From assembly GCF_026914265.1 (NCBI RefSeq), contig NC_069135.1, forward strand, positions 3,179,001 through 3,243,000: a stretch of 64,000 bases of DNA, given 5' to 3'. Shown one piece after another: positions 20,507 through 51,055 of the stretch. The stretch is from Mya arenaria (taxonomy: Eukaryota; Mollusca; Bivalvia; Myida; Myidae). A program made the position numbers and the translations under genes. The notes under the pieces are model-generated. The model had not been told where the DNA came from and did not search any database. It was given only the letters and a program-made list of their open reading frames with translations. The number at the start of each line of letters is the position of its first letter. Positions within the stretch are counted from its first letter, which is position 1.

Positions 20507-20910
<404 letters not shown>

Positions 20911-23148
20911 CACAGGAGTTATGTTTTAACATTTAACATAAAAATTAAAAACACATGCAACGATATGTTATTACGCGAAATATGCGTGGATACGATTGCC
21001 CTCATCGGAGGTGATTTTGGCGTCATTGTAGTGTTTGTTTATGCCCGCACGTCTATATGTACACCGAGCGGCCATCCAATCAATAAAGAATGAGGCGTTT
21101 ACCCTGCAGTGGCATGCCTTGTAGAATTATATGCGTTATCTTACGGATCTATGTACGATTGTTCATTCAACATTCTTGTCCTCCGCCAAGGTCCCTAACA
21201 TATTAAGTGAAACGCAGTCGTAAAATATTTACATCCGCCGTTTCCCGATATATGGTACGGCGTCGTCCTTTTCTAATATACTGCTGCAAGACCAAATAGT
21301 AATTTTATTAACTTACAATATAAATTACGAACTTAATCCCAATGGAATTGCTCTGCAAATAAAAAGTTTGAAATGCAGTTCTATACAATACTTTAGGTGG
21401 GGATTGAGCTGTAATCTTCTTTTTCATAACGTGATGAACGTAAGATGATCCGTTCTAACAAAAATGCATTTGCCTATATTAACCCTGAGAACATCCATAA
21501 ACATACAAGTTGCACAAAATTGTTAACTTTTGGTGGAATTTCAGCCCTCGGCTTCGTCGAAGTTTTGCGACAAACGAAATTTTGACAACCAGTGACGCTC
21601 TTGTCTATATCTGCCTTCATACCAGGCTAATAGAATCGCTGTCTGGTCTACCACATGGTCTTATTGCCGGGTCGTCCTACGTCGACATGAACGCCTTCAA
21701 TGAAGGAAAGTTCTCCCAGCTCTTCCACGAGTCTATGCATTATTGTTAATTATAGAAACGAAGCAAATAACGAACCATCATTTATCAAAAGTTCATTAGC
21801 AAGTTATAATACAACAATTTCTAAAAAGTGTGTGGAAGATTGTAAGTATCTATCATGTGTTTCCGGTACGGATAGAAAAATCCGACCCGAGGGCACGCGC
21901 GTTAGCCGGTAACGAGGCTTGCCGAGTTACCGGTCACGCAGCGTGCCCGAGGGTCGGATTTTTCGATCCGGACCGGAAAAACATGATTGATATTTTTTCT
22001 TGCATACCTAAAATTATGAATTTATGGAAAAAAATGACGTAGAAAACGAACTTTCGTACATTTACACAAAAAAGCGCGTGCGACGTTGTTTGCTGACGTC
22101 ATAGAGCGCAGTAATTTTAAATAACTAAAAATTAAAAGACTTGCAAACATATATATTTGATTGCGCTTTATTGAAATGGCATTCTATATCTTTCATAAAC
22201 CATACAAAGGGTATATAAGAAGTGGCGCGTTGTTGCGCGTGACTCATCTTACATGGGGTATGTAAGATGGGTTTTTCCAGCACTGGTCACATGACCGGAA
22301 ACACACGTCCGGTATGCAAGAAAATGAATTATATTGATTTGAGAACAAGATATTTCAGTAATACAATGAAAACTACAGGGACATGCACAGAAGTCGAAAA
22401 TTCCAAAATTAACTCTGTCAATGGCCAAAAGAACAATTAAATAAGGACACAATTGTATAAACTCCTTAAAAGACCCCCCCCCCACACACACACACACGCA
22501 CACACATACCAAGTAGGTTTATCGATAAATGATGGGATTACCGCATTGGAACGGTCAAACATTATTTATGCCAAAGACCTACGACACAAAAGTTTACAAC
22601 ATACATTTCATCCGACCATGTTTAAGCTCATTTTTATGTTGGTTTTGCTATTTATGGCGATGCATGTGCATTATGTGGAGATTTTTTTTATTGCAAATCA
22701 TTTATCATATATTTAATACACGTGAGAATAAACTATATTTTGATACAGTACAACAGATATTGACTTCATCGTTGCAACGTGCAATACGATAAACATGTAT
22801 ATTCCCTTTGATTGACTTTGTACAACTGGACCAATGATAACTGCAACACGAGATTACGAGAAAACGAACACACGGAACACATTTGAATAATCGATTACTC
22901 AATACATGTGATAAATTAACATGCCATCAAAATAAGTTCATAACAAATGCTACGTGCTAGTCTTGCTTGATAACGAACAGTTTCAAGCCCGAGACTTTAG
23001 AGAAGCCCTTTTATGTAATTTTAAAGAATCATTTTTACAAACATAAATGTCAATTTCAAATAGAAATACAAAGCAGTAAATTTCACAATCAATACTCAAC
23101 TATAAAGAAAGTTACATTGAAATGAAGATATGCAGTTTCGATACTTAA
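20911..23148. other. Intergenic region between NUDT5 and the TIR locus
   Basis: Contains a palindrome at 21853-21986, a short (CA)n run near 22483-22508, and a GC-richer patch at 21560-21730 with a 60-codon open frame that I do not recognise. No gene could be supported. Confidence 0.4.
21853..21986. repeat. Imperfect ~130-bp palindrome (hairpin MITE-like)
   Basis: Arms 'tcatgtgtttccggtacggat' and 'atccggaccggaaaaacatga' are inverse, continued by 'gaaaaatccgacccgagggcacgc' against 'gcgtgcccgagggtcggattttt'. A second nested palindrome, 'ccggtaac..gttaccgg', is at the centre. A diverged relative occurs at 48516-48595, so this is a dispersed family. It has no coding capacity. Confidence 0.75.
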
Positions 23149-23617
23149 AGGGACTGTGTCACAGATTGGCACCAAAAAAAAGATTTTTTTCTGTAACGAA
23201 TCTCAGGACAATTATCTAATAGAATGTGTTACGCTTTGATATCGTAATTGTAAAAAAAGTACCAAAAAGTAAAAAAAAAATGTGTCAGAGACCGGGTTCG
23301 AACCCGCGTCGCCAAAATTGAAGTACAAAGGCTTATTCTAATCGGGTGACATAATTAAGCTATACACCTACCTCGGTAATATCACGTGATCACACCGACT
23401 AGCCAATCACGCATAAGGAATAAATTCTACCTGGTAGACATACCCAGTAATCTTTTTTAATGGAAAAAATATGAAATAACTGCTAAACTTAAATAAATTG
23501 TAAACTATGTTGTACTTCAGTTAGTAAGTTTCAATGCATTGTACACTTCGATGCCAAGTTTATGTCAGTTTTCGACAATTTTGTTTTCGCTATTTTATCA
23601 TACTTGAGACAGCCCCT
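23149..23617. mobile_element. TTAA-flanked MITE with tRNA-like core, copy 1
   Basis: 469 bp between TTAA sites at 23145-23148 and 23618-23621, with short inverted ends AGGGACTGT / ACAGCCCCT. It is clearly the same element, inverted, as 41191-41680. Inside is 'accgggttcgaacccgcgtcgcc', a B-box-like tRNA remnant on the minus strand. TTAA target duplication is typical of piggyBac-type elements, but no transposase is present; that assignment is inference. Confidence 0.8.
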
Positions 23618-24323
23618 TTAAGTCTAATCTTAACTTGTGATTGTTCGAAATAATGGCGACTGGTCGCTGTTTCATCAAGACTCGAAAGAAGCAATTTTGT
23701 GTATAGGAAGGACTTCAAACACAGAAGCATTACTGTTGAAAATCGTGCTTGGTACGAAATTGCTCAAGATTTTCTGATGAAATGATCCCCTGCTCTATCA
23801 CTTCAATTTCAAAATCAAAATCATGATTCATTAAGCATTAAGAATACATACACATATAACTCTATCAATAAGACATATCTGAGTAGGGATCACTGAAATG
23901 ATTTCGATATAAAAGTCACAGACATTTGAAGCAGCTATGTAACTGAAGAAAAATATATCAAATATATTTATAAAACCTAGTGATCGATGACTTTATTAAG
24001 AAAACATAACATAACATATCACATTTAGTCGTAAATTCATGAGGTAGATATGTAAATAAAAGAAAAATATTTCATAAATAAATGTACAAGTATAAATGCA
24101 AACGAATGATAAATAAGGTGTGCTCCCTTCCTAAAATAAAACTGAATAATCATGAAATATTTTCAGACTTTTGAGGAAAAACAACAAGTACAGATACACT
24201 TTCGAAAACACAAGAATATTGATACTCATATAAATACTATATGAAAACATTTCATTTTATAGATCAAAAGTTATAGTATCATTATTCTAGAAACAATGAT
24301 AAACATTTCGCGAAAGATGCTTT

Positions 24324-25915
24324 TCATGAGCTCAAGTCTAGCTTTTTTTGCAACTCGTGTGCATATTTGAAGTTCCTTTTCACGTTTGCATCAATTTCCT
24401 TACGTTTTCGTACAACTACAGCCTCTTTCAGGACGGTGATCACTTTTTCACGAGTAAACGGTGATTCTCTATCAAACCAGTCAAGCTTTGCAATGCTAAA
24501 AATCCCGGGGGCGTTTTGTATTTTCTTTGAAATTTTGGACTGGAATGAACGGGTTTTAAAATACTATTTGGTAGCATTTCCGTCCCTGTTTCATGGCTTT
24601 CTAGGAACGTTCTCGCTGTCGCTTCTTCACAAAAAAGGTTAAAATACGGCGTGTTAGAGTTTTGAGACAGATAGAAGAACACAATGCAGCTTCTTGACAA
24701 TATATCAACTATGACTTGTATTTTGGACTGCGCAAACTGTTCACTGTCAAAAAGTTCAATTCGAATGATATCTGGTACTGGGATTTCCTTTGTAAGTGAT
24801 TCAATAAATGATTTAAACTGCAATACATAGTCATAATCTCTTGAATCGTAAACAACGACGGCATCAAAACATTTATACTCTGCAGGCTTTGCGCGGACTA
24901 TCTCTGAACGAATGGATTCGCGAATAAACACTTCAATAACGTTTTCATTTTGGTTTGGTTCTGTTGGTTTTGTATCCCTAGGAACATCGTTTGCATTTTT
25001 AGGCATTGAATCTCGGTGAAGCGCATAGTTTTTCGTCTCTTCTATTCCATGAAGCACATGTGTCTGTACTGGATCTTGGCGGATGTTTGTATTGGACACT
25101 AGAGTTCTGCCTTTTCTCATACCGTTTTGGTTTGGCCTGGATGATCGCGCACAGGAATATGGTTCTTGGCTACGCGTAATGGTTTGTGAATTATGATGAC
25201 GTTTATCTTGGTAGTTCTCGGTGTGCGTGACAATATCGCCCTCTTCCGCCGATTCATCAACGCCTTGAACAGATTAGATATTGCAAATTAGGTGATGTAT
25301 TACAAGCGTAGGTAAATTTACACACGCCCAGACTATTAATTAATTATATAAAGATTCTATTTGTAGGTGGGAGTTAAACAGTTTTTAAGATATATATTGT
25401 AGAAATACCGACAACATCCAAACAAAAACAACAACCAAAAGACCATAATAAAAATAAACCGCAAAAGTAGAATGTGATTAACGTATTATGTATTGGTTGT
25501 GATGTTTGAAATAACAAAAGACTTATCTTATACACATGTGTATGTTTCTGCGTTAAAAACGTTATGTTATCAAGACAGAAATAATTATAGAAAAACATTT
25601 GATCGATCGAACAATAAGTTTATTCATATTTATATGAAAAAACTACAGAAACAAGCCAACAAGCCAAAAGTTTAAACATACATCCCGCTTAATGGCACAG
25701 GGTAAACGCAAAATACATAGAACACAAAACAAAAACATCACAAACAAGAAACATGGAATAACAACACAAAACTCCACAAAAACACAGTTCATATATACTA
25801 TATAATTGTAGGTGTGTTTATCATGGATTGTTAGCCTAAGAACGGTTACCCAAATAATATTTTTTTACTTACATGTGCACCCGCTTTTTAAACTAAGTCG
25901 GAACCTTAAAAACAT
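24324..25915 (-). CDS. TRIF-like TIR adaptor, short form without RHIM (one-base frameshift)
   Basis: Two coding exons: 25915-25873 (start exon, MFLRFRLSLKSGCT) and 25263-24324 (acceptor TTCAAG|GC). Expected product about 327 aa. A TIR domain lies at about 147-290: FDAVVVYDSRDYDYVLQFK (box 1 region), IRIELFDSEQF, IVFFYLSQNSNTP and LKPVHSSPKFQRKYKTPPG. The last parallels the human TRIF stretch 'MRPLNNPLPRERTPFALQTINAL'. The frame breaks in the run of five G at 24507-24511. With one more base it would continue as GIFSIAKLDWFDRE and end at the TGA at 24324-24326; without it the protein ends with about 20 unrelated residues. This could be a real inactivating change or a homopolymer error. The paralogue at 33155-36896 shares the TIR and has a RHIM; none follows here. 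It may be a decoy or regulator, or a decaying copy. Confidence 0.8.
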
Positions 25916-25967
25916 CTTGCTCAAATCTTCAGCGGTAGAGGAATAGAAAAGTATATAAACTATTCAA

Positions 25968-25974
25968 CTTTATA
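25968..25974 (-). promoter_or_regulatory. TATA box of the nearest start exon (copy A)
   Basis: TATAAAG on the minus strand, 59 bp upstream of the ATG at 25915. The spacing is identical in the two other copies, supporting a core promoter with a short 5' UTR of about 30 nt. Confidence 0.65.
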
Positions 25975-28178
25975 CCTGTATGTTTTACGTCGCAGGGCTT
26001 CCCGCTTATGCATACGAAACATTCTACTTTTCCTTTCGAAAAATAATTAAATATGGGCTAATCTACTTTTTCGTAGAAGAGAGACAGTTCCGATTTCCGC
26101 AAATACAGAATGGTGACTGGTCGTTTCTTTACCTTACTAATACAAAATATCGATGTCTTGTTTAAATTTGAGTTTAAAGAAATAGTTCACAATACTAAAA
26201 CAACATTTTTGTTTTTGTTGGTAAGAGTTGACATAATATAGAATAAACTAAACTTTACACCGGACAGTTAATAAAGTTTCAGCATTTCATATCTGTAATA
26301 TTTTTCTCTTTGCGCCTTAAAGTAAGTCAGAAATTCACTCAGAATTAATTATTGATCATGATTTTTTCCGTTTTTTTTTTCAAATGTTTAATCGTTAGTA
26401 ATCATAATTCCATAATTTTACTCAGGTGTGGCATTTGGAAAAAGACATCAGCAAATACAGTACTGCAATTATATTTTTTATTAATGGTTTTCTTTGTTTA
26501 TTACCAGCATAAATCGTATCTGTTAGTCGGCAATCTAGAGTCGAGATCCCCTATAAAAGAAATGCTTGTGTTTACTTTTCATTGGCTATCATGATTTCTT
26601 TCATTCTTATGTTTCATCCAGTCAATTCATACTTTGTGTTCGCGCGTATACGAAGTCAATGCCGATCGAGGATTTACCCCATTTACTGTATCTCCATTTT
26701 TGACGGTGAATAGAGCTGCAGTAATTAGTGTTCCTGATTGTCATTTGCCAACAAATATGTGCGAACACCAAGTTTTTAACACAGGCATCTGAATCATTGT
26801 TTGCCTGTGGTTTTTAATAAAGCATATTTTGTCGGTCTACGTGACTTGGTACAGTGGATCGCTCTGCCTTATGTGCAAGGCTGGGGTTGTCTGGAGGATG
26901 TTTAAGCTTACGTTATGAACCAGAATTTAACATTAATGTGTAAACACTTTACAGCTTACTTATCGTATTGACAGCTATTTAGTAAACAAATGGATTATTT
27001 ATGTGGAAATATTCGCCACTCGAGGAGGTATGTTTTCTATGATAAATGACAGTCGTGACATAAAGTACGATCATACACTAATATAAACAATATATCTGTT
27101 TCTTTTATGCTTATTTTCGGACTTTCATAAGGTCTTAATATTTTTTTCTAAATGCCACCTTTTTTGAAGAGAGCATTTTCTATTATAGCTGTCAATTTTC
27201 TGTTTCCTGCTTGTGGAGAAAAAAGTTATTCCATATGTTTTTATAGTTTATTATGCATTCGTGTTTGGTGCATTTAATTGATTAACATTAATAAATGATC
27301 TTTTATGAATGTATTTTTCTTCCAAATAGTAACAGTTACTGCAGGAAAGCACATTTTAATTAAACAGGACATAAAGACATGACCGAATTAATACGCCGCC
27401 ATGTATTGAATGAAAGCAAATGGTTTTAGCAAAACAATTGCGGATAATCATTGTAAAAATAACTTTTCATAGTTTTAGAGTTTCTTCATGAAACATAGGT
27501 ATTCTAAGTGACCACAATCAATGCAATCGTTTTGATTTATCGAAAAGGATGAATAAGTCTCGAAAACAATGGTTCTTATCGTGTTTACTTTCATAGAAAT
27601 GTGCACAGAAAAACACGGTATATCTACCTTATGAGATGAGAGTTGACCGCTGCAAATATTTGAGGAGCCACCAGTCATTTAATATTTGTGCGATTTTAGC
27701 TAAAACATACATGGATACACTCTTGTTATCAGTAATTAATATTTTTCATAAATGCATTATCCAGTGAGTTGTTAAAGTTTTATCACTTAAAAGGTATGTT
27801 TGTATACATGTGTATGTTTTGATTTTAAATATGAGTATCACTTTAACCATCAAGCAAATTCAGAACGCTTTGTTGGTCCATATGAATAAAAAATGAAACA
27901 AGGTCATCCAAGTAAAAGTTATGTACTATCAATACGGAAAAGGGAAACGCACAAGGTTTCAAAATAAACCCCGTTTAATGGCACTGGGTAAACGCGAAAG
28001 ACATACAACACAAAAAGCAAAAACATCACAAACAAAAACATGGAACAACAGCACAAAACTCCATAAATAACACAGTGCATATATTCTATATAAAGAAGTA
28101 GATGTGTTTATCAAGAATTGTTTGGTACCGCTTTGGAACGGTCTGTAAAATATTACCAAAATATTGATTTTTACTTAC

Positions 28179-30167: not shown

Positions 30168-33154
30168 CCTATATGTTTGACGTCGCTGGGCTTCCCGCTT
30201 ATGCATACGAAACATTCTACTTTTCCTTTGGAAAAATAGAATATCGGCTGATCTACTTTTTCGTACAAGAGAGACAGTTCCAATTTCCGCAAATACAGGA
30301 TGGTGACTGGTCTTTCGTTTACCTAACTTATACAAAATATCGATTTTTTGTTAATATTCAAGTTTTAAGAAATATTTCACAATACCTATATGTTTGTTTG
30401 TTTTTGTTGGTAAGAGTTGACATAATCTAGAATAAACTTAACCCTACACCGGGAAGTTAATGAAGTTTTAGCATTTCATACCTGTAATATTTCTTATCCT
30501 TGCCACTAAAGGTAAGTCAGAGATTCACACAGAAAATATTTATTATTCATGATTTTTCCCGGATTTTTTAAATGTTAAATTGTAAGTTTTAACTTAATTG
30601 AAACTGTCAGAGACCTTTCTGATTCGCTTGAAGACAGGTCGTTTTCCCGGTAAAGAGTGAAAACCATGATAGGTTGTTGACAAAATTTGAGGCATGGATC
30701 AGGTTAAAAAACATCTGTTAATTGATGTATGAATTTTCTGGGAGGTTCGTATCAAATTTTACAACAACAAGGAGTTCAAAAGGACATATGAACGATGATA
30801 TAACATTGTTTTTATGTTCGAGCGTTTGTTTTCGTCTGTCTGTTATTTGTTTTTTAATAAAATCAAATGTTGCTGAACCGCTAATTTTCTTGTATTTTAG
30901 TGTCAACGTTATCGCAATAACTTGCTTTTGCTTGGAAATTCACTCTTTCGCTTTTCTTTGGGGGAATTGTTCTTGTTTTGGGGGAAAACTCGCTTCGCTT
31001 GTAGAGGTTGGGGGCAGTTCAGTTAACAGTCCGTCTTAAGCCTATATACAATATCCAGCAAAGAGCACAGTTAATAGTTTATTACGAAGATGTTATTTCG
31101 TTAAGGAATCAATGTTAAGTGAATATATTGTTTGCAACACGGAGATCTTCGAGAGCTGCGCGCTGATACCAATCAACAGCCAATCACCATCGATTCCCTG
31201 ATCGGTCACGGGTCATGTGACCAATAGATCGATTACTATTGCACTGTGGGGTCCCTTGACCCGCGTGGATGTCACGCCTCTTGTTTAGGTAAAATGCCCC
31301 TAAGGCAGCCATAAAGCTGCTAAAATCCGACTTAAAGGTATTCTATTGATAAAAGTATTTGTAGACATTAAATTACCCAAGAAGTCAAATTGAGTGATAA
31401 TGCATGTCATTAAATGACAGCATGAAACGTAATTTATCTTTAAACTTAAATTGCTATCAAACCGCCTATCTACTTTATTTAAAACAAAGAAGCCATACTT
31501 TAAAAAGTACAACTTAAGCAAAATGTTAATCATATAAAAATAAACAATATTAATTTAATTAAAAGAGCTACAAAAAAGACTATTTTATTTATCTAAAGTA
31601 ATTTATACAGAATATAACTCTATAAGAATTAATTTAATAATCTTAAAAGGCGACCATGAATTATAGCATGGTAGCAATGTTCGAACGTTCAGCTTCATAG
31701 TTCAAGAAAATGTTTGAAAAACAGGATTACCATTTTTCTAACTAACATTAGGTTGTTTGTTTCCAAATATCTTTACTTAAATTTATGACACCTTTTTTAA
31801 GTTTCAAATTATTTTTTTGCAATATTTTCTGATTTAAAAGTGACGTGTTTTTCTGTTTTGATCAAGGGGAAGTAACTACAATGGAATTTAAATGTAAGTT
31901 TTATAGTTGATAATTTCACTCCTTTTGAACTGAACATATCTTATTGATAATTTCACTGTTGTTGTTTTTTTTTGGATAAAACTCCATATTTCATCAATAA
32001 GCATGTAATAAAAAATAAGTATATACGTTCCTTTCTTAAAAATGCTCTTTTTAGTATTAAAGGTTCACTGTTATTACAAAAATATGATATATGTATACCA
32101 GAATCAATACAATTGTTTTAATTTACCGAAAAGGATGAATAAGTATCGAAAACAATGGTTCTTACCGTGTTTACTTTCAATGAAATGTGCAGACAACACG
32201 GTATTTCTACCTTATGAGATGATAGTTGGTCGCTGTAAATATTGACCCACCAGTCATTTAATATTTGTGCGTTTTCAGCTATTAAATACTTGGTTATCAG
32301 TTATTAATATTTTTCATGAATGCATTTTCCAGTAAGTAGTTTATTTATGTTCTTATACATGTGTATGTTTTGATTTTAAATACGAGTATTACTTTAACCA
32401 TCAAGCAAATTCAGAAAGCTTTGTTGGTATATATGAATAAAAAATAACGAGGTCATCCCAGTAAAAGTTCTGTACTATCAGTACGGAAAAGGGAAACGAA
32501 CGAGATTTCAAGATAACCCCGTTTAATACCCGGCACATATCGTATTTTGTCCCCATGACACGGCTCCTGTTGCTTCGACCCCGAGAATAGGCGACACTGT
32601 GTACGAATTATATGCGAGAATAATGAGTGCTTCTACGCCGTTCCCATAAATATGTGAAGAATGACGGAATAAGTTCAACCTCTTATCGACATTCCCATCC
32701 TGTGTGACATTGTAATAATGATACATTGCTAAGTTTATATTGAACCACGCTTTATAATATTAAAAGGCTTTGACTACGTTCGAACCCTGCATTTCTGCGA
32801 CGCATTTATGTCTTTCAGTTCGACCAATTGAAAACTAGTGTAAAAATAAACAAATTATTTCCATTGAGTTTATTTTCTTTATTTTTCACAACACAGATTC
32901 AAAGTGATTAAACCAACATATTTTTTGTAATATTTTATTAAACTTTAATAATTGAGAAAAAAATAATCACTCAAATATATATACTAATGGTTATTGATTG
33001 TATAGACTGGCTTATAGCAGTCAGTTGTGGTTACCCGTTGAGCCGTCATCTACAAAATCTTGAGATTATTTATTGGTTATAATTAAAACCAATTTCAGAT
33101 TATAACGATACTCGGATTATCGGTGCTAAATAATTAAGACTTAAGTTTATAACA

Positions 33155-36100
33155 TTAATCTACTTCGGAATTAGAATTTGACTGACAAAGACTAAGTTTA
33201 ATTTTAGAAAATGGTCCTCGTAAAAAACCCTGTATTAAACAATCACTTTTCATCTTTGTATTTTTTATCTGATTAAATGAAAATGTTCGTTCGGATATTG
33301 AAGAACCATCAGAAAATAATTCAGAATCAGAAATAAAATCATCGACATGTATGTTTGATGTAAATCTTGATCTTGCATTTGTTGTGTTTTCATCGTCTAG
33401 ATAGTTGTTTTCCGAATCCTTTCGACGATATTTATAGCTGTTAGAGACATCGTTTTCCGATTCCTTTCCACGATCAATATGGCTGTTAGAGACATCGTTT
33501 TCTTTATTAGGCGTCGTTGGTCTATTAGATACCTCACCATCTATAATGTTGAATTTCTCGTCCCAATTTGTCTTTCTATTACCATTTGTTTTCATCGATG
33601 AATTTTCTTGATATTTACCTTTCAAGCCACTGAAAAATATCATATGATACTAAAATATAATTCTTAACGATTAAGATAGAGATTGTTTTCATAATACTAC
33701 AGTATGTCTGGTTTAAACTAGGTATAACTGGTTAACTGATTTGTTTGCATTCTTTATCGCGTGATATTCCGTGTACAGTATCCTCATGAAACTTATCTCG
33801 ATAAAGCCAGTTTATTCACAGCGATAACATGCGTTCATGCTGATTTAAAACTTTAGGTTTATTTAACATATCGGAAATTATAAGATCATGTGACATATGC
33901 TACATGATTAATATACACACCTTTTCCGTTCGCCAATGGTGGTGCTAGATACACTGTTATTGCTGCCTATCTGCACTATAGAACTGCCAACAATATTGAC
34001 AGTTTTACCGCCATGAGGGTGGTTCACAAAGAATTTAGCAAAACCCTCGTCATCGCTGTCAGACTCGCCCTCGTCATCGCTGTCAGACTCGCCCACGTCA
34101 CCGCTGTCAGACTCACAGGTAGATGACTCTGATGTTTGGTCCTCTGTAAGGTACTCGTCATCTTTAGTTGCAGCAAATTTGTCCTCGCTATCTAAAACAA
34201 GAATTAAGAACATTAAGAACGAAACGCAAACAAATTTAATTCGGTATAATTTAAGTTACCAGCCGAAAAGAAAAGACAATTGTCCATCAAGGTCATACGC
34301 CGTCAAAGCTTATTTTGCTTAACACTAGTTACTGAACATGATTAAAATTATTCCTTTTATAGGTAAGCTGTAAGCTAAATTTACGTCGAAATGATCATTG
34401 GTGACCAAGAACATGTAACATAAGCTTTGTTAATGAATTAAGTGTCGAACGTATGTACAGCTTTTAAAATTTATATATACACGTGATTAAGAACCGTTTA
34501 CCATTCTATAACTATAATTGGCAAAGCTCGAAGTCCAATACGCTAACCACGTCAGCGTTACTGATAAGTGAATATTTAAGTTCCCAGGAAAACAACACTT
34601 TCAGTAACAGCTTTTTCTTAGAAACACTTACTGTATTTATGGAGAGTGTCAATTGCTGCTGTATGATTCGACCGTGAAGAGTGCTCTGTGTCTATTTCAA
34701 CATCATCTGTTGAAAGCTCTGGGTTTATGATTAATTTTCCTGTGACCTTTGACACAACCGTCAGCTCGGAGTTCAAAGGTGTATTATGAGTGTCTTCATG
34801 TAGAAATGAGTGTTGGCGGCTGGATTGGGGATTGCTAGTGACACCGTCATGACTAGTTACACTGTATTGAGGCTGGTGTTGGCGACTAGAATGGATTTCA
34901 TTTGTATCACCGTCATGTCTGGATACACTGTTTTGAGGCTGGTGCTGACGGCTTGCATGGGGAATGCTTGTTTCACATTCATGGCTGGTTAAACTGTAGT
35001 GAGGCTGGTGATGATGGGGAGGTAGATTGTGGTAGAAATTAGCTCCGTTTCGATGATATCCATGATGGTGTGAATAGTCTGTTGGGTACGCACGATTACC
35101 GTATGCACCTAGATGCTGACCATTTGTCGCACTTTGCATCGTATTTAACGTCGGTTCTGCAAAAGCCTGTTGGTTAACTCTACCGTTTGCGGCCGGTGTT
35201 AGGTTTTGTTCATGTAGAACATACTGAGTATCTCTTCTAGCATAATCATAACTATTGACATTATTATTTGGCGTGGTTCTGGTCAAATTCGGTACCATGT
35301 GAAATGTGTTAGATGGCATTGCCTCATAATAATGCCCATGTTGATGTCCACCTGTACTTGTCTGGTTAACCGAAAAAGGTGAATGGGAAACATTGCCGTT
35401 ATTATGATTTAGAGGTATATTGTGTCTATACAAATGATCGTCATTCTCATGCAAGAGCATCCTCGATTGTCTTATCATTTCTTCATCCTGCTTTGTTTTA
35501 AAGGTGTCTTGTGTATCTAATTGAACATGATGATTTCCTTGGTATGGTGGGAATTGACGAGTTGGTGGTGCCGGCACTGAAGTAAACGGCACAGTTTGTA
35601 CATGTTCAGTTGTACCATTAAAGTTACGAGTGTGACTTGATGCTGGAATTGTAGATGTTTGTTGTTCACGATAAATGTGCTGGAATTCCCGATTAGTGTT
35701 AACTTCAGTTTCATGGCGTTTTCTAAGCTTCTTTGCACTTTTCATAAGTTGTATTATTTTATCACGTGTAAACGAAGACGTTATGTCAAACCAGTCAACT
35801 GCATTAATAGAGAATAGCCCCGGTGGTGTTGAATAAGTTCGTAAATGCTTTGGCTTTGTATGAACTGGTTGAAGTAAACACCTTGAAGGTGTATCTAAGG
35901 CAAATGCGGAAGCAATTTCACTCTGGTTACATGGATCAAGACGAAGTCGTCCAATAGCCTCTTCACAAAAGAAATTAATATCAGGCGTATTTGTATTATC
36001 AGTCAAAAACACGAATATTACACAACATTTTGAAATAATATCTTCCACATTTCGAACTTTAGATTGAATAAATTTTTGACTTTCAAATAATTCTATCCTT

Positions 36101-36896
36101 ATATGTTCATGTTCCGTTCTCATAACATCTTCAATAAACCTCTTAAACTGCAATACATGTTCATAATCTCTTTGATTAAATACTATAACACCGTCAATGC
36201 TTTTCCATTGCTTAGGTTTTTTACTTTGTAAAACATTTTTAACAGTAGATTTTATCCACTGACGTAACGTGTCTTTGTCAACACCGCTGTTTCGGTCACT
36301 AGGTGTATTGTCTTTCGCAGAAGATAACCCCTGATTTTGATTGCAAGTCTCTTCCGCTGATCGCGTTTCAGCCCTGTGGCTCTTGAATGTCTTCGCGTTA
36401 CCGTGTGTTGTACTGTGTGTAGATGCTAACTGATCAGCCGACATAGCCGACATTCTATCGTCCTCGATAGGAACAAATGAAGATGGCACACCTCGGGTAA
36501 CATCTCCAGCTTCCTTGCTGGATTCTTTACATACACCAGCCTCATTTTCTGATTCCGATTCCGAACTCCCACTTGAGTCATCCTCGCTTAGATCGTTGAT
36601 ATGTACATTCTTAGTGTCATCTGTAATTTAAAACGTTAATTAAAGTCCAAATCGATGCACTCAATATCAAACTATTGTTCAGTATCCATTTATCAGTACA
36701 TCTGTAGACAATTTACTGTCAATTTAATCCCAACTGTTAGCTAGGTTGAACATTTTGTACAGTTGCCAACTCTATAATGATAAGTGGCTGACATGTTTCT
36801 ATTTAAAGAATGTGCTTACAATTCCTATTCATTTACTGCGTCTCAACTTTCAGTTAACTTACCCTCGTCAGGTAGTGGATTTGCCTTAACACCCAT
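33155..36896 (-). CDS. TRIF/TICAM1-like adaptor with TIR and RHIM domains
   Basis: Exons in coding order: 36916-36863 (ATG at 36896 in the context ACCATGG), 36620-34632, 34191-33921 and 33629-33155 (stop TAA). Phases agree and give 922 codons. Layout: acidic N-terminus; TIR at about 152-310 (GVIVFNQRDYEHVLQFK, IRIELFESQKF, VIFVFLTDNTNTP, LLQPVHTKPKHL..STPPGLFSINAVDWFD); a long H/Q/N/S-rich linker (about 320-670); a DSDDEGESDSDDEG acidic stretch; then TVNIVGSSIVQIGSNNSV (738-755), a RHIM with core VQIG and the NN two residues later, as in RIPK3 and TRIF. A 160-residue hydrophilic tail follows. TIR then RHIM is the order in vertebrate TRIF, which relays Toll-like receptor signals to NF-kB, IRF and necroptotic kinases. 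Function here is inferred from domains. The short paralogue lies 7 kb downstream on the same strand. Confidence 0.87.
33921..34191 (-). CDS. Acidic/RHIM exon of the TIR-RHIM gene
   Basis: Codes for residues 675-765. An acidic stretch with tandem (E/G)ESDSDDEG units precedes FAKFFVNHPHGGKTVNIV and the RHIM core VQIGSNN. The acceptor GTTTTAG|ATAGC and donor AAAAG|GTGTGT keep phase on both sides. An amyloid-forming RHIM next to a charged stretch is a plausible autonomous module. Confidence 0.85.
34632..36620 (-). CDS. TIR-and-linker exon of the TIR-RHIM gene
   Basis: A single 1989-nt exon, residues 12-675, with acceptor TTACAG|ATGAC and donor AAATACA|GTAAGT. It holds the whole TIR domain and the low-complexity linker with repeated SRQHQPQ(N/Y)SV-(S/T)-HDG units (about residues 555-620), a small internal tandem duplication. 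Confidence 0.88.
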
Positions 36897-36918
36897 GGTA
36901 ATATCTTCCTCAGAGTCT

Positions 36919-36919
36919 A

Positions 36920-36988
<69 letters not shown>
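36919..36988. repeat. (TTA)n microsatellite at a splice acceptor
   Basis: About 23 ATA/TTA triplets directly abutting the acceptor of the first coding exon of the TIR-RHIM gene. On the gene strand the run ...TTATTATTATTTAG supplies the polypyrimidine tract. Confidence 0.9.
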
Positions 36989-36990
<2 letters not shown>

Positions 36991-37276
36991 TCGAACTACT
37001 TAGTATTTTTGTCGAGACATGTTTATTATATTTATAACGGATGAGCAAAATAACAATTGTACTGTATAATATGTGGTCAAAGCTTAATATAATAAATACA
37101 TACATAATGTTAAGACATAGAAACTGTATGTACAATAATGAATATAGTCTTATTTTTTAAAAAAAATAATATATGGATATATTTTATTTATTCACCAATA
37201 TATGAATTAAGGCTTAACATATACCGTGAAAAATATTTATCTTTAATACATAATTTCAAATAAGTTACAAAAATAC

Positions 37277-37358
37277 CTTGAAATGGGTAGAATAGACGTT
37301 TAACCTTCACAATTTTGTAGAATTTAGTTATGTATCCAACCAATTTGCATGGAGAAAA
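37277..37358 (-). other. Candidate 5' non-coding exon of the TIR-RHIM gene
   Basis: A donor TTTCAAG|GTATTT ends at 37277, and a TATA box lies about 110 bp upstream at 37384-37390. This would place transcription start near 37355 and give a short first exon joined to the acceptor at 36916. Start position is inferred; no ATG in frame was seen in it. Confidence 0.35.
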
Positions 37359-37383
37359 AGTCCGAATAGCGGGTTGCGATCGC

Positions 37384-37390
37384 TTTTATA
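37384..37390 (-). promoter_or_regulatory. Candidate TATA box of the TIR-RHIM gene
   Basis: TATAAAA within CTATAAAAGCG on the minus strand, upstream of the candidate first exon. Confidence 0.4.
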
Positions 37391-38489
37391 GAAAGTAACT
37401 TGGATTTTCCTATGTTACTATAAATACATGTTTGGTTACCGGCCATATTCATTACTACTTAGAATGGGAAACAGTGCTTATCTCGTTAACTGCGTCTAGC
37501 GATACACCTAAATGAGATCAATAATCGTCGCTTAGTCGTATATTATTTTAGGATTTTTAATTACCGTATTCATTTACTCTCGTCATAGCGAGGATATTTA
37601 TTTCCTTTTTCCAATTTATTACTTTATACACGTTTCTTCAATCCTACGCATTTATAAATATCAATATTTACAGGAAAACACGTCATTTTTCCGAGCAGTA
37701 AAAATAGAAGTGGTGATTCCAATATTCGCAAGTTCTATTCCGCGGGTTTACACAAATTCTCACTCAAATTAAAATGAATATATTTACTTTTGTACGTAGC
37801 ACAGTGCATCGGTATATTCATAAAGCCGACACGTTTATCAGTTGACGAACAAGATTTATAACTTAAGCTGTACTCTAAGCACCATTCGGAACACCTCGGC
37901 CATTTTCAATCGAAAACGACCTAGGATGTATGCCGGTACATCAGTACTGGTAGTAAGGTTGCTATTTTCCCCAGATCAGTAGAAGTAGTTCATTAAAATT
38001 TTAATAATAGTATTAATTAATTATAGAGTTTTAACGTGTGGTTTTTAATAAGTTTAAAATAATTGCCGGTGACATGTCTTATTGCATAAATAATGAAGAT
38101 TCACAAGAGAGAAGTCATTTATTTTAACTGCTAAATTAAAAAAAAAAAAAAACACCATCTACTTAAAGCGTAGTTAAATGTTATGATTTCTGACAATGTA
38201 AACCGTCTGTATACTTCCGTGATTGTTTTCGATGGAAAATGGCATTTGCAGCATATGCAGAATGTTTCAGTCAGTGGTTTTGTGCTATGGTTTAAATGGC
38301 CGACTTGGTTCTCCAGGCTACTTTTATCTGTTATATATCTGCTAACAGCTAAACCTTCGAAACGGCCATTACACCAAGCATAAATTGCAGGGGAGCAATA
38401 TGATTTGGGTCGGTTTTGGAACAATCTTTCTACTTAGGTTAAACGCTTTATCTCAATTTGTTTATTTCGATACTTGTCAAACATAAAAC

Positions 38490-39140
38490 AAATATTTCAA
38501 CAGTAGTTTATCTTTGAAAATAGACATGGTTTCCTCAACTATAATCTAAGTATTCAATATTTGATATTGTTTATAAACTTCCTCCTTGACAACCCTCTAA
38601 ACCACACACTTGAGTTATGTTTAAAGATTGAAAATATCAAGTGCAAATCGATGGGTGAAAGCGAAAAGGTTCTATCTGCTTCTTTATTTAATGTCACTTA
38701 AAACCTTTTCGCATTCACCCCACGAAATGTAACTAATTATATTTACATCTAAATATATTAATATAACGCCTTTAGCTTAAATTATGTCGGCAAGTTTAAC
38801 AACTTGATTACGGTATTGTTGTATGAGGATTTTGCCTGCGTAACGATGTATTTTGACCATAGAATCACGACCGCCTCAACCTCCACCCCCAGCACCCCCT
38901 CCGAGGTTAAATTATACTGGGAAGTCATTTTTCTGTGGATGTCGAATATCTGCATAAGGGTTCATTTTATTTCATGGCTTCATCATTATAAATAAATTAA
39001 TGCAGTGTCTTCGCTTTGATACAAAAAGTCCCTTCATCCACAACAACATAAAGTTGATAAACGCGAGATTAGCAGCAGCAATAGTAGTTAATGGATAGTT
39101 AGTGGTATGAGTAGCAGCTGCTGCTGCTGTTGTTGTTGTT
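38490..39140. repeat. Segmental duplicate, copy 1 (empty site)
   Basis: Shares collinear sequence with 40690-41860: 'ttgatattgtttat', 'aaagattgaaaa(t/c)atcaagt', 'aacttgattacggtattgtt', 'tctgtggatgtcgaa' and 'gataaacgcgagattagcagca'. At about 38950 it reads straight through 'tctgcataagggttcatt', the position where copy 2 carries the TTAA element. Confidence 0.8.
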
Positions 39141-39188
39141 GTTGTTGTTGTTGCAACATTATCATCATCATCATCATTATCATCATTG

Positions 39189-39246
<58 letters not shown>

Positions 39247-39260
39247 TGTCATCGTCATCG

Positions 39261-39311
<51 letters not shown>

Positions 39312-39356
39312 CAATCGTCATCGTCATCATCAACATCATCCTCATCATCATCCTCG

Positions 39357-39442
<86 letters not shown>

Positions 39443-39479
39443 GTAATAATCGTCATAATCGTCATCATCGTCATCATCA
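39107..39479. repeat. (TTG)n and (CAT)n microsatellites
   Basis: A (GCT)n/(TTG)n run followed by about 110 CAT triplets with scattered CGT/TGT variants. Poly-Asp, poly-His, poly-Ile and poly-Ser readings are artefacts. Confidence 0.95.
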
Positions 39480-39850
39480 ATCATCAACAGCAATAACTGC
39501 ATGATCACCAGCTGTTTCTCTCAGAGTTGAAAGCACACGTATTAAAATACCGAAGTATTTAATTCAAATAATGGTACTCGATGTTATTTTTTATCAGGAG
39601 TTATTGCTTATTAGATGTTCATAAGTTTAATAGTACCGATATCGTTTTTATAAAGGTTTGAAATTTCTTATAAAACGTTAATGTTTCAAGTTTTATTGGC
39701 AATATTGGCAATACATATTGGCTATGAAACATAATAGAAAAGGGTATTGAATGATATTTACAGATCCCCCTCCCCCCTCTTCAATTTTGATATTACACGT
39801 TTTCATTAAAAAACTTCATTTCGCCTTGCAAGATACTCTTTAATATAGAG

Positions 39851-39976
39851 AATATACTAGGTTAACGCCGTGGATGGAGGAAGTTTATCTGGCAAGGCGG
39901 AGGAAAGGCAAACCCGACAAATTCCGAAGCCGAACCAGATAAACTTTCTCCATCCACGGCACTAACTTAGTATTTT
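39851..39976. repeat. ~125-bp palindrome
   Basis: Arms of about 40 bp: 'cgccgtggatggaggaagtt' and 'tatctgg' against 'ccagataaactttctccatc' and 'cacggc', with flanks 'atactaggttaac'/'actaacttagtat' also inverse. The loop is 'caaggcggaggaaagg' and onward. Probably a hairpin MITE. Confidence 0.75.
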
Positions 39977-40301
39977 ATTTATTCTGCCTCTTTGTTAATG
40001 AAACACTATAAATTATCTTAAAATTATCAAGTATCTTTAGAAATAAGGGGGGCAAGTGTTCTTCCCTGTTGACGTGGGCACACTCGGTATCCATGTTTAA
40101 ATGCGCCCCCAAAATAGTTATCAAAGCTGTTCATTTTTGCAATACGTTTACAGTCAAAGTAATTGCAATTTAATACGTCAATATCAATTCAAAACATAAA
40201 AAGCTTTTAAAAGTGCATAAACTTTATTAGTCACCAAACATTATTTTTTTCATGTAACAATTATTCCGCAAGTCATAGACTACACAGGTCATGGTTCAAG
40301 A

Positions 40302-46800: not shown

Positions 46801-47847
46801 TTAAAATTCCGTAAGACTATGTCTGTGGGCAATTGTCGGAGATTCACTTCCTGTCTGTGTTCTGGCCAATTTCACTCTAAATATCGATGTCCGAAGGGTG
46901 TTCATGATGTTCTTGGCTTCATCACGAAATCTACTTCCCATGAGGCAATACAGCAGGAAGTTGCAGGTGTTGTTTGTATACATGAGTAGATTCACAACCG
47001 CCCACCATGGATCCTTGAGTCTTAAGTCATCAGGGTGGTCCTTAGGTAACCAATATGGACGTCCAATGAGATATATACATATTGGTAGAGTGCACACTAT
47101 GAACACAGCATTCAAGGTCAGCAATAACAATGTGAGACTTGATGTTTTGTTGTTTTGATTTGCGTTTTGAGTAGTTCCTGGTGTAATCTGACTGCTAACT
47201 CTTTTCTTACTTTGCATCAGTTTATATACAATGCATATATTGCCACTAGATAAAACAATGAACGGAATTATAGAAAATTTACAAAGGTCAATCCAAGACC
47301 AAATATTGTCAAAGAAATTCTCGTAAGCTCCAGCGCGTGCTCCGCATATAACTGTGGTGTTTGTAAGGTTTGATATTGCATTCTCTGTTAGCTCATACCC
47401 AATTAATACATGCAAATTAATAACCATTGCACTAATGACAATCGTTATCAACGAAATAATTGACAAGTTCTTTGTACAGATCCGCTTACTGCTGAACGGT
47501 CTAAGCGTGACAATAATTCTTTCAGTTGTCACGGCAACAAGAATCCAAACAGTGCAATCGGCAATAACATAAATTAGCCATCCATGGATTTTGCAAGTTA
47601 TCTCCGAAATGTCCCTAAAATCCACGGCAAACACATACTTGACCCACTGCCGTAAAAGTCCAACATACAGCATACACAGATCTGCCACGGAAAGTCCAAG
47701 GAGAAGCGTCGTCGACGGCTGCTTCTGGAACCTTTTTTGATTAAGTATTGCTATAGACAACACATTTCCAAATGTCCCAACTAAAATCAGGAAAGGGGAA
47801 ACTATTTGCCAAAGCAACACTCCAATTTCTGGTTGATCCTGTGCCAT
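46801..47847 (-). CDS. Intronless class A (rhodopsin-like) GPCR, neuropeptide-receptor type
   Basis: 348 aa in one exon with seven hydrophobic segments (about 14-36, 46-66, 88-108, 128-150, 190-210, 238-262, 282-302). Signatures: GNVLSIAIL in TM1, LGLSVADLCML in TM2, C85 and C168 for the extracellular disulfide, CTLPICIYL in TM6, and NNTCNFLLYCLMGSRFR in place of the usual NPxxY-x5-F. The DRY box is TER (108-110). The N-terminus is only about a dozen residues, while the third intracellular loop has a basic SKKRVSS. This resembles the large molluscan set of orphan peptide receptors related to FMRFamide-, GPR139- and TRH-receptor-like proteins. The ligand cannot be assigned. An intronless structure fits a retrocopied or expanded family. 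Confidence 0.87.
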   Translation of the reverse strand: MAQDQPEIGVLLWQIVSPFLILVGTFGNVLSIAILNQKRFQKQPSTTLLLGLSVADLCMLYVGLLRQWVKYVFAVDFRDISEITCKIHGWLIYVIADCTVWILVAVTTERIIVTLRPFSSKRICTKNLSIISLITIVISAMVINLHVLIGYELTENAISNLTNTTVICGARAGAYENFFDNIWSWIDLCKFSIIPFIVLSSGNICIVYKLMQSKKRVSSQITPGTTQNANQNNKTSSLTLLLLTLNAVFIVCTLPICIYLIGRPYWLPKDHPDDLRLKDPWWAVVNLLMYTNNTCNFLLYCLMGSRFRDEAKNIMNTLRTSIFRVKLARTQTGSESPTIAHRHSLTEF

Positions 47848-50300
47848 GTTTTTCTAAGATATCATTGCTATCTGATGGAACATTACGAAAAAGGTTTGTT
47901 AATGAGAACTGTGCCCCAAGTGAGGTTGAACATCGCTTCTATAAACTATTTAAATGTTCATACCTTTATCTGTAGTATTATTATCATTATCATCATCATA
48001 ATAACAAATTAGACTTACTTAATTCGCCGCCACGATCAGAATATGACAAACCGGCCACACATCTACTTAGACATGCGTAACTTCAGTTGGCAGCTATGTG
48101 GATGCATTTTCATTTTTATTTATATTAATTATTTACACGGAAAATGTTCACGTCGCATATTTATTCATGTAGCTTCGATATCGAAAGGATTATAATCACA
48201 GAAGACATTTGGGTTATGAAAATATATACACAGGTATATAATGTGCACTGCAGTTATAAGAACAAATAACAGGTTGTTGTTCTGTGATAATTATAAAATA
48301 ATGAATAATGTTGCTTCCTATTTATCATTTGATACAACTGAAAGAAATGCTTAACTTCACTTTATAATATATGCCATGTTTAGTTGCGGTTCATACTTTT
48401 CTCCTTGCGATACAAAGTAAAATGATTCCATAGTTAGTTCATATTTATACACTCAATTTATGTTGTAATTAATTGCCATCCTTATAATATCTATCATGTT
48501 TTTCATTTCTGAATCCTAAATCCGACCCAAGAGCACGCGCGTAAGTCGATTACGATACTCGCGGAGTTACCGGCAACGCAACATGCCCAACGGTATATGC
48601 ATGTGCTTTGTGTGCAAAATGGGAGTCTCCAGTATAGCTTAAGTTACCTGAAATACCTATACGGTGTTCAACAGAGTATATTCGTTGTGTATCGGTGATG
48701 ATCTTATCGTATATTCGGTTTGTTTAAATCTTTGGCTTCTGAGCTTGTTTCTGTAGCTTTTCATATAAATATTATCTCAGAACTGTTTATACATAACTTA
48801 TCAATAATACAAATCTGTATTAGCCTTCTATTTACTGAACTGAAAATAATCTCAGACACTTTAATAGTAAAAAAACTGAAGAGTAACTTTTTCTTCTTCA
48901 GTGAAAATATGATTTTGAAATGAACAAAATTGATACCACCACTTCGAATATTATTTATAAGTGTGTGAAAGTTCTTTATTATAGTTTATGTTTGTGGATT
49001 TCTGATATGTGTTACCATATTGTTCTAGTTTTAGATTAAATATTAAAATAATTAAATCACAGCCTATGATTTAAACAATTATTAGCAAAAATGCTAGCAG
49101 GAAAATATTACAAATAACATCAAATAACTTATGGGTATCTCATGACTTCACAATCAGTTCTGTAATCTAAACCAATTTGCCTTAAGTCCATATTGACCTT
49201 TTTGCAGATGATTCACACGCATTTGCCATGATACAAGGTTTTACCCTCGCGAAATAGCTCTTTACATGTGTTTATTAAGTAAGGTGCACGCAAGTAAAAA
49301 TACCAAAATGGATATACCAACTGAACAATTTGTTTAAATAATCTGCATTGTGCCAAGGAAGGTCATTAAATCACAAGGTTTTTCTAATGAAATTTCTTAA
49401 GTCATTGCCATTGACTTAAGTCGATTTCCTAATTCAAGCGTCTCACTGCTTACATGAAACGATAACTTGATACTTTTTGAAATATTGAGTTTCCATTACC
49501 TTTTCTGCAAATTCATAATTTTATCAAAAACACCCGAAACTCTTTCTTTTAATTTGACAATGAAAATGTTAATAAATCAGCAAAAGTTATTTCAGATTTT
49601 TTTTATCAATACAAGGTCTTTCTTCAAACAAAACATGATCATTTACAACATAATTTATCAATAGTTGAATGTTTATGCATTCGTCGTCGAAACCAAAGAC
49701 TCATATTTTTGTATTCCTGGGCAGTATTGCAGAACGATAGAGCAATATATTGAGGGTTTCGCATTAATATTGCGACTTTTGCTTAAATGTGGCGATATTT
49801 GCTTTACTATTTCAACAATAACTTTATTGCATTGCCGCAACGCCATCGGTCCAGGACTTGTCACGCATATTTTCCAGTTTGGGTCACTAATCATTGTATC
49901 TTACCAAATCGGCGTCTATTTTCCGAATCAGTCAGTATAGAGTTGGCGTCTAAGTCAATGTAACTAGGTTGTCTGCGTAATACATACTTAATAGAGGTGC
50001 CCCGAAATGAGATTAACGGGGCGCAGGAAACCATGTTCGGGTTCGAACATTCTATTCCATATTATTTGTGATAAAATAGAACTACGTGTATATGTATTCG
50101 AGAGTGACGTCACCTGCTATCGTTTGATTGAGTAAAGTAATACTTATAATAAAATTTCTTTTTAAGTGCTTTAAGTCCGGCCGGAGCATACACTCATCCG
50201 ACCGGAAACTATTGTTCTCTTTCACTTTCTTTTAAGCACTCGTAAATGTGACCTTTGTGTGGTTTGGGAGACGCCTACCCTCCACCACATTTTCGTCACC
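47848..50300. other. Intergenic region between the GPCR and the TNF ligand
   Basis: Holds a diverged copy of the 21.9-kb palindrome at 48516-48595 and several short frames without motifs. Both flanking genes point away from it, so it probably includes both promoters; no specific element could be fixed. Confidence 0.4.
48516..48595. repeat. Diverged copy of the 21.9-kb palindromic repeat
   Basis: 'aaatccgacccaagagcacgcgcgtaagtcgattacg' and 'gcggagttaccggcaacgcaacatgcccaacgg' parallel 'aaatccgacccgagggcacgcgcgttagccggtaacg' and its partner at 21890-21950. The right arm is decayed. Confidence 0.55.
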
Positions 50301-50760: not shown

Positions 50761-51055
50761 CTCACTCGAATTGAATTGTTCTTGAGTGGTGCCTATATGG
50801 GGTGAAATGTGGTTGTGTTTCCTACAAAACCTTCTAGGTTGTACTCCACCTTCTTCACTCTCTTGATTATCAGATGCAGCGAGAAAACATCTCGACCGGA
50901 TAATAGATAGTTCCGGCCTTACATTGAAATTTTAGTTGTCATTGATTGCGGTTTTGGTATGCCAGATGAATATATATTCGGGTTCCCATTTCTTTATTCT
51001 CCTATATATAAAGTCGATTCTGAAAGGGCTTACTCAGTTCCGTGTCACGGCATAC

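Follow-up and report, generated by a model that had tools for sequence, protein, structure and literature searches.

The adaptor TRIF (TICAM1) carries a TIR domain first and a RHIM later in the protein, and the same order was found in a predicted gene of the bivalve Mya arenaria. The gene lies on the minus strand of a stretch of 64,000 nucleotides (the window; contig C14:3179001-3243000) in a genome searched over 1,216,080,610 bases and 18 contigs. It differs from TRIF in having no match to the TRIF N-terminal domain (TRIF-NTD), no pLxIS motif and no TRAF6 site, in a TIR-like domain that by family profile resembles TICAM no more than it does other TIRs, and in a RHIM-like motif with about 170 residues after it, the core of which is VQIG or TQIG in the clam. 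Amphioxus bbtTICAM is likewise an invertebrate TIR adaptor, with a RHIM reported to bind RIP (PMC6043800), although another report describes the RHIM as not conserved in Leptocardii (PMC9440496); it is a chordate protein at the base of TICAM, likened here by description. RIPK1-like kinases also place a RHIM in a bivalve immune protein (PMC12119088), but are built of kinase, RHIM and death domain with no TIR, and are a candidate partner of the clam protein, not a relative. A CARD-RHIM protein of bivalve iridovirus 1, reported to resemble bivalve sequences (PMC12452177), similarly joins an assembly domain to a RHIM, with a CARD in place of the TIR.

The literature searches listed no mollusc TIR-RHIM protein, and the sequence comparison given here covers one genome. 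The reading favoured, with fair confidence, is that the gene product is a cytoplasmic adaptor of the TIR-RHIM type, TRIF-like by analogy and belonging to a family that is probably bivalve.

Gene structure and conservation of the RHIM-like motif

A splice-model reconstruction in the window predicted a gene at 36896-33155 with four exons and 922 codons plus a stop (Table 1). All three junctions were phase-consistent (donors GTAAGT, GTAAGT and GTGTGT; acceptors AG), so that the gene model of the initial annotation was borne out exactly by splice dinucleotides and phases. Exon 2 is a stop-to-stop frame of 669 amino acids (aa), and frames of 600 aa occurred in 0/40 Markov windows, while exon 1, which is short and without independent support, is the weakest part of the model. 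The 922-aa product comprises an acidic N-terminus, an alpha/beta-looking domain at about residues 150-319, a Q/N/H-rich linker of about 350 residues, acidic repeats, the RHIM-like motif and a tail of about 170 residues.

The motif, TVNIVGSSIVQIGSNNSV, lies within exon 3 at 34003-33950, with its core at residues 747-750 and some 430 residues past the TIR-like domain, close to the 440 first estimated. Its placement had been likened to the C-terminal RHIM of TRIF, which holds for the order, TIR then RHIM, but not for the terminus. In Pfam scans of exon frames and cut-outs, PF12721 (RHIM; cutoff 20 bits) gave 18.0 bits (E 0.002) in the 115-aa exon-3 frame and 20.0 and 21.0 bits in cut-outs of 49 and 22 aa, which puts the window gene at the Pfam threshold; a human RIPK3 peptide, scored for comparison, gave 39.4 bits. 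The core VQIG, also present in a near-copy of the gene on contig C3, agrees with (V/I)Q(V/I)G. The pattern [VI]Q[VIL]GxxN has a single occurrence in the window, and among 100 Markov windows it was found in none within frames of 100 aa or more and in 32 anywhere in six frames. Genome-wide, PF12721 gave eight matches at E<=10, two of them the window gene (20.0 bits, E = 1.1) and its C3 near-copy. At that E-value the motif is not significant alone, and the case is carried by its conservation in two diverged paralogues. The best PF12721 score in the genome, 23.4 bits, belonged to NSSGVQIGKTG (locus L019, C1 7672190-7672231); this match lies in a frame of 48 aa, with a kinase-like last exon on the other strand, and is probably due to chance.

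The TIR-like domain had 13 matches in the genome, counted as 12 loci of seven kinds, two of them partial; a frameshifted paralogue in the window contributes two of the 13 rows. Two loci, L011 (C14 10.69 Mb) and L012 (C14 10.11 Mb), share 36 and 35% identity with the window domain, and both keep the order of TIR-like exon, RHIM-like exon and an open frame ending DSDVD. Their exon downstream of the TIR-like exon carries GGRAVNIIGKITQIGNNNKV or GGRAVNIIGGKITQIGNNNKV, the motif reading GGRAVNIIG(G)KITQIGNNNKV, with a TQIG core that departs from (V/I)Q(V/I)G at position 1. The intron between exons 2 and 3 can be phase 1 in both, as in the window gene (donor GAA/GTAAGA, acceptor TTTTGTAG/AA, the slash marking the splice site), and their exon 3 holds no in-frame ATG before the motif and therefore needs an upstream exon. 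Exon 3 of the window gene was more similar to that of L011, and to that of L012, than in any of 2000 shuffles each (0/2000), while the similarity of its exon 4 to the last exon of L012 was not significant (70/2000 shuffles as good). Since both motif and position are kept at these loci, the motif is conserved and part of the TIR-like gene, and the architecture is conserved in three diverged genes. Run against 4961 frames from the fetched loci and the window, a profile made of three copies of the motif recovered all four copies and nothing else close to them (next best E 0.2). In total, the motif was present in 4/12 family loci, one gene kind having VQIG and two having TQIG, and the other eight had none in the fetched flanks.

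Between L011 and L012, the ratio of nonsynonymous to synonymous substitution rates (dN/dS) was about 0.31 in the TIR-like domain; N-terminus and linker gave 0.78 and 0.82, and the TIR-like domain is thus under constraint. Exons 3-4 of the two loci are 94% identical, with low dS, and the 3' halves are far more alike than the 5' halves, which suggests gene conversion or exon exchange in the part that holds the RHIM.

A paralogue in which no RHIM was found, and which had escaped the initial annotation, lies about 10 kb from the window gene. It is frameshifted near 24.5 kb, possibly as an allele, a pseudogene or an assembly error, and its near-copy on C3 (L010) is intact, with a 316-aa frame. Window stretches 20661-27614 and 31570-40072 match near the start of C3, where the near-copies (L009, L010) extend over 8.5 kb at 98.9% for the window gene and 7 kb at 99.0% for the RHIM-less paralogue. 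Exon 2 of the window gene and of its C3 copy differ at 5 of 662 codons, all nonsynonymously. These near-copies could be an unmerged haplotype, a misjoin or a recent interchromosomal duplication. Further RHIM-less members (L013-L018) form a cluster at C14 31.25-31.55 Mb, in two sets that closely resemble each other and are separated by about 268 kb. The Pfam TIR model PF01582 found at least 144 TIR matches in the genome (150 of 249 candidates scored); no family member was among the matches listed, and the family is therefore a distinct, strongly diverged set.

Comparison of the exon-2 domain with TIR domains

Profile-profile comparison supports a TIR fold for the exon-2 domain. A profile of six family members was aligned with human templates by hhalign, with 100 column-shuffled templates as the null. 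Scores of 27.6 for SARM1, the strongest human TIR, 23.5 for MyD88, 21.3 for TLR2, 20.1 for TRIF+TRAM and 18.8 for TRAM were each reached by 0/100 shuffles, that of 24.0 for TLR2+MyD88 by 1/100, and that of 16.7 for TRIF, the weakest, by 5/100. A five-TIR profile scored 23.3 against the family (0/100 shuffles as high) and 16.3 in reversed form (2/60), and five leave-one-out TIR profiles scored 24.5 to 37.7, each with 0/40 shuffles as high; the best E among them was 2.3e-5. With 69 segments of Escherichia coli proteins as decoys, MyD88, TLR2, SARM1 and, by 0.01, TRAM exceeded all of them with the family profile, while TRIF was reached by 4/69 and IL17RA by 20/69. Identification as a SEFIR domain was tried and rejected, IL17RA (13.3; 31/100 shuffles) and IL17RA+B (12.5; 39/100) scoring at noise level. 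Single-sequence comparison over 15 pairs gave TRIF as the best human TIR for the window domain (8/500 shuffles as good) and TLR2 for the RHIM-less paralogue (2/500).

The high score of SARM1 falls in the last strand/helix region, and the invariant Glu pair of the family lies, by eye, near the region of what we take to be the catalytic Glu of SARM1. In a tree of 11 TIRs SARM1 stood beside the clam set with support of just 85/84, a placement that is unconvincing, and any NADase activity of the clam domain is hypothetical. Overall, the exon-2 domain is probably a TIR, as the initial annotation had proposed, being TIR-like by profile comparison, although silent in the Pfam TIR models: supported, not confirmed.

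Among the neighbouring features of the window (Table 1), the TNF-superfamily ligand gene also belongs to immunity and lies some 14 kb away from the adaptor gene.

Table 1. Positions of predicted features in the window
Feature	Position	Strand	Description
Exon 1	36863..36896	-	ATG, 11 codons + 1 nt; donor GTAAGT
Exon 2	34632..36620	-	Acidic N-terminus, TIR-like domain, Q/N/H-rich linker
TIR-like domain	35698..36207	-	Residues 150-319; profile-profile comparison with human TIRs; Pfam negative
Imperfect 66-bp tandem repeats	34828..35014	-	Encode part of H/Q-rich linker
Exon 3	33921..34191	-	Acidic repeats and RHIM-like motif; similar exon in L011, L012
24-bp tandem repeat	34044..34114	-	Encodes acidic GESDSDDE units
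RHIM-like motif VNIVGSSIVQIGSNNSV	33950..34000	-	PF12721; counterpart in paralogues L011, L012
Exon 4	33155..33629	-	Low-complexity tail ending SEVD and stop; 164-aa frame
RHIM-less tandem paralogue	24324..25273	-	TIR-like domain; 62/175 identical, E 2e-39
AAT array	36920-36988		Perfect, 23 copies, directly upstream of exon 1
TNF-superfamily ligand gene	50936-53016	+	Membrane-anchor-like frame, then TNF domain exon (PF00229 33.1 bits)
Rhodopsin-type G protein-coupled receptor	46801-47853	-	Single frame; PF00001 74 bits
Sodium:neurotransmitter symporter	56451-56801	-	C-terminal exon; PF00209 28 bits
Repeat arrays	8369-10437 and 16246-17563		31-bp (~46 copies in first part, repetitive open frames); 64-bp (20.6 copies, 95% match)

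Origin of the fusion and alternative explanations

Several results weigh against a TIR-RHIM adaptor. The Pfam TIR models gave no match at E<=10 in any family member scanned; human TRIF itself scores 23.9 bits against a Pfam cutoff of 28, and this failure therefore does not exclude a TIR. With the family profile, TRIF alone was not distinguishable from decoys, and a two-row family profile gave P 0.056 against TRIF+TRAM. Comparison with TIRs of the clam itself was weak, since 9/100 shuffles equalled the score of a profile of 10 TLR-type TIRs (17.3), and 12/60 and 10/60 those of two pairs of other clam TIRs. Fifteen single clam TIRs were separated from decoys with an area under the curve (AUC) of 0.68 (p 0.015), 2/15 lying above the decoys' 95th percentile; for comparison, AUC values against clam TIRs were 0.94 for TRIF+TRAM, 0.85 for SARM1 and, hardly better than the family, 0.73 for TRIF alone (4/15). 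AlphaFold models from two-row alignments had a mean predicted local distance difference test score (pLDDT) of 48.5 and 49.7, and Foldseek gave neither model a match at E<=0.001, nor did the 50 rows listed for each include a TIR. As to the RHIM, PF12721 made no call at E<=10 in L011 or L012, and exons 3-4 of these loci look recently homogenised and are therefore not two independent witnesses. From the short contexts read, no RHIM kinase could be recognised at any of the eight genomic PF12721 matches.

The adaptor could have a lineage-specific origin by convergent assembly, in which a RHIM exon was added to a divergent TIR gene of a mollusc independently of TRIF. This origin, which we lean towards slightly, is compatible with the adaptor reading and, within it, more economical than an ancient adaptor. 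It fits a TIR-like domain not closest to TICAM with the family profile and a RHIM in only 4/12 family loci, and CARD-RHIM is another bivalve RHIM combination on record (PMC12452177). Less easily accommodated is the divergence of the RHIM-bearing members, which are just 35-36% identical in the TIR, so that within the family the fusion is no recent event. In the tree of 11 TIRs the window gene grouped with the RHIM-less L010, at a support (45/29) too low to decide for or against one clade of RHIM-bearing members.

That exon 2 encodes some other alpha/beta fold, the protein being a RHIM adaptor of another type, is doubtful. The scores against human TIRs exceed those of shuffles and decoys, a co-linear register was found in 5/5 human TIRs and 9/15 clam TIRs against 18/69 decoys (with an offset range picked after seeing the data), and L011 contains, as read by eye, the box-1-like FDAAIVYDKRDY; on the other side are the missing Pfam TIR and fold matches and the weak scores against clam TIRs.

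The protein might instead be an inhibitor that occupies receptor TIRs or caps RHIM amyloids, much as amphioxus bbtTIRC and bbtTIRA are reported to inhibit MyD88 and TICAM signalling (PMC6043800). The many RHIM-less paralogues (8/12 loci) would suit such a role, which is nevertheless unlikely for the window gene, the canonical VQIG core being of the type described as signalling-competent (PMC12119088).

True orthology with TICAM, by which a TIR-RHIM adaptor would be older than chordates and lost or overlooked elsewhere, is improbable, and no test places the gene with TRIF, although it may work like TRIF. The domain order is shared with TRIF, the TRIF+TRAM profile scored above 100/100 shuffles, and in single-sequence comparison no human TIR matched the window domain better than TRIF (8/500 shuffles as good). 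In the tree of 11 TIRs, monophyly with TICAM was not rejected (approximately unbiased test, p 0.23). The RIP-binding RHIM reported for amphioxus bbtTICAM (PMC6043800) also favours an early origin, as do two points in PMC3308963, which cites an identification of TRIF and TRAM in cnidaria and gives a weak hit for TRAM in Mytilus edulis. A TICAM-like TIR was, however, not supported, since TRIF ranks as the weakest human TIR with the family profile, at decoy level, and the TRIF motifs outside the TIR and RHIM were not found. No pLxIS or TRAF6 motif occurs in the 922-aa protein, and TRIF-NTD had no match in exon 2 and none genome-wide, where the control also gave no match. The BB loop of the family is of the type ELFxSxxFxQS, without the PG of the motif E-D-F-x-x-P-G described for the TRIF group in a report that places TRIF-like TIRs in chordates only (PMC7075850). 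Aplysia (PMC9334734) and M. edulis (PMC3308963) are described in the respective reports as having no clear TRIF orthologue, and, according to the review PMC6043800, TRIF homologues are not known from before amphioxus.

Very improbable is a separate gene for the RHIM-like exon, or a chance match of the motif: the genome-wide Pfam E of 1.1 and an in-frame ATG just upstream of exon 3 in the window would allow it, but the motif follows the TIR exon at two other loci that lack such an ATG and can have an intron of the same phase.

Proposed mode of action and significance

As a TIR-RHIM adaptor, the protein would act through its divergent TIR, docking onto or co-assembling with that of another adaptor or of an activated receptor. 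Clustering through the long, disordered-looking Q/N/H-rich linker would then draw the RHIMs together, and these could nucleate an amyloid-type contact with a RIPK1-like RHIM kinase, predicted to exist in this genome, which would trigger NF-kB or cell death. A RIPK1 with kinase, RHIM and death domain is reported in spiralians, zebra mussel among them; the C-terminus of the zebra mussel protein activates NF-kB, and does so less when its RHIM is mutated (PMC12119088). The same report gives TQIG as the tetrad of lamprey RIPK3 and finds that TQIG in human RIPK3 abolishes NF-kB activation and spares ZBP1-dependent death. With VQIG in one gene kind and TQIG, the lamprey tetrad, in two, a split of NF-kB and death outputs is therefore predicted, with NF-kB competence expected of the VQIG copy and a bias to another output expected of the two TQIG copies. 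RHIM-less paralogues may serve as TIR-only partners or as brakes.

If the adaptor reading is true, a mollusc TIR-RHIM family would mean that the logic leading from a TIR receptor to a RHIM amyloid arose earlier than thought or twice, and would offer a specific candidate for what acts upstream of the known bivalve RHIM kinases. In a farther-reaching version, which is quite unlikely, the TIR-RHIM adaptor is pre-chordate, and a single residue in the RHIM core (VQIG against TQIG) divides a bivalve TRIF-type branch into paralogues that lean to NF-kB and paralogues that lean to death, RHIM-less copies acting as their regulators; the TRIF-type branch would then predate amphioxus, its supposed starting point. 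With VQIG and TQIG occurring naturally in paralogues of one animal, the reported separation of NF-kB and death outputs becomes testable there.

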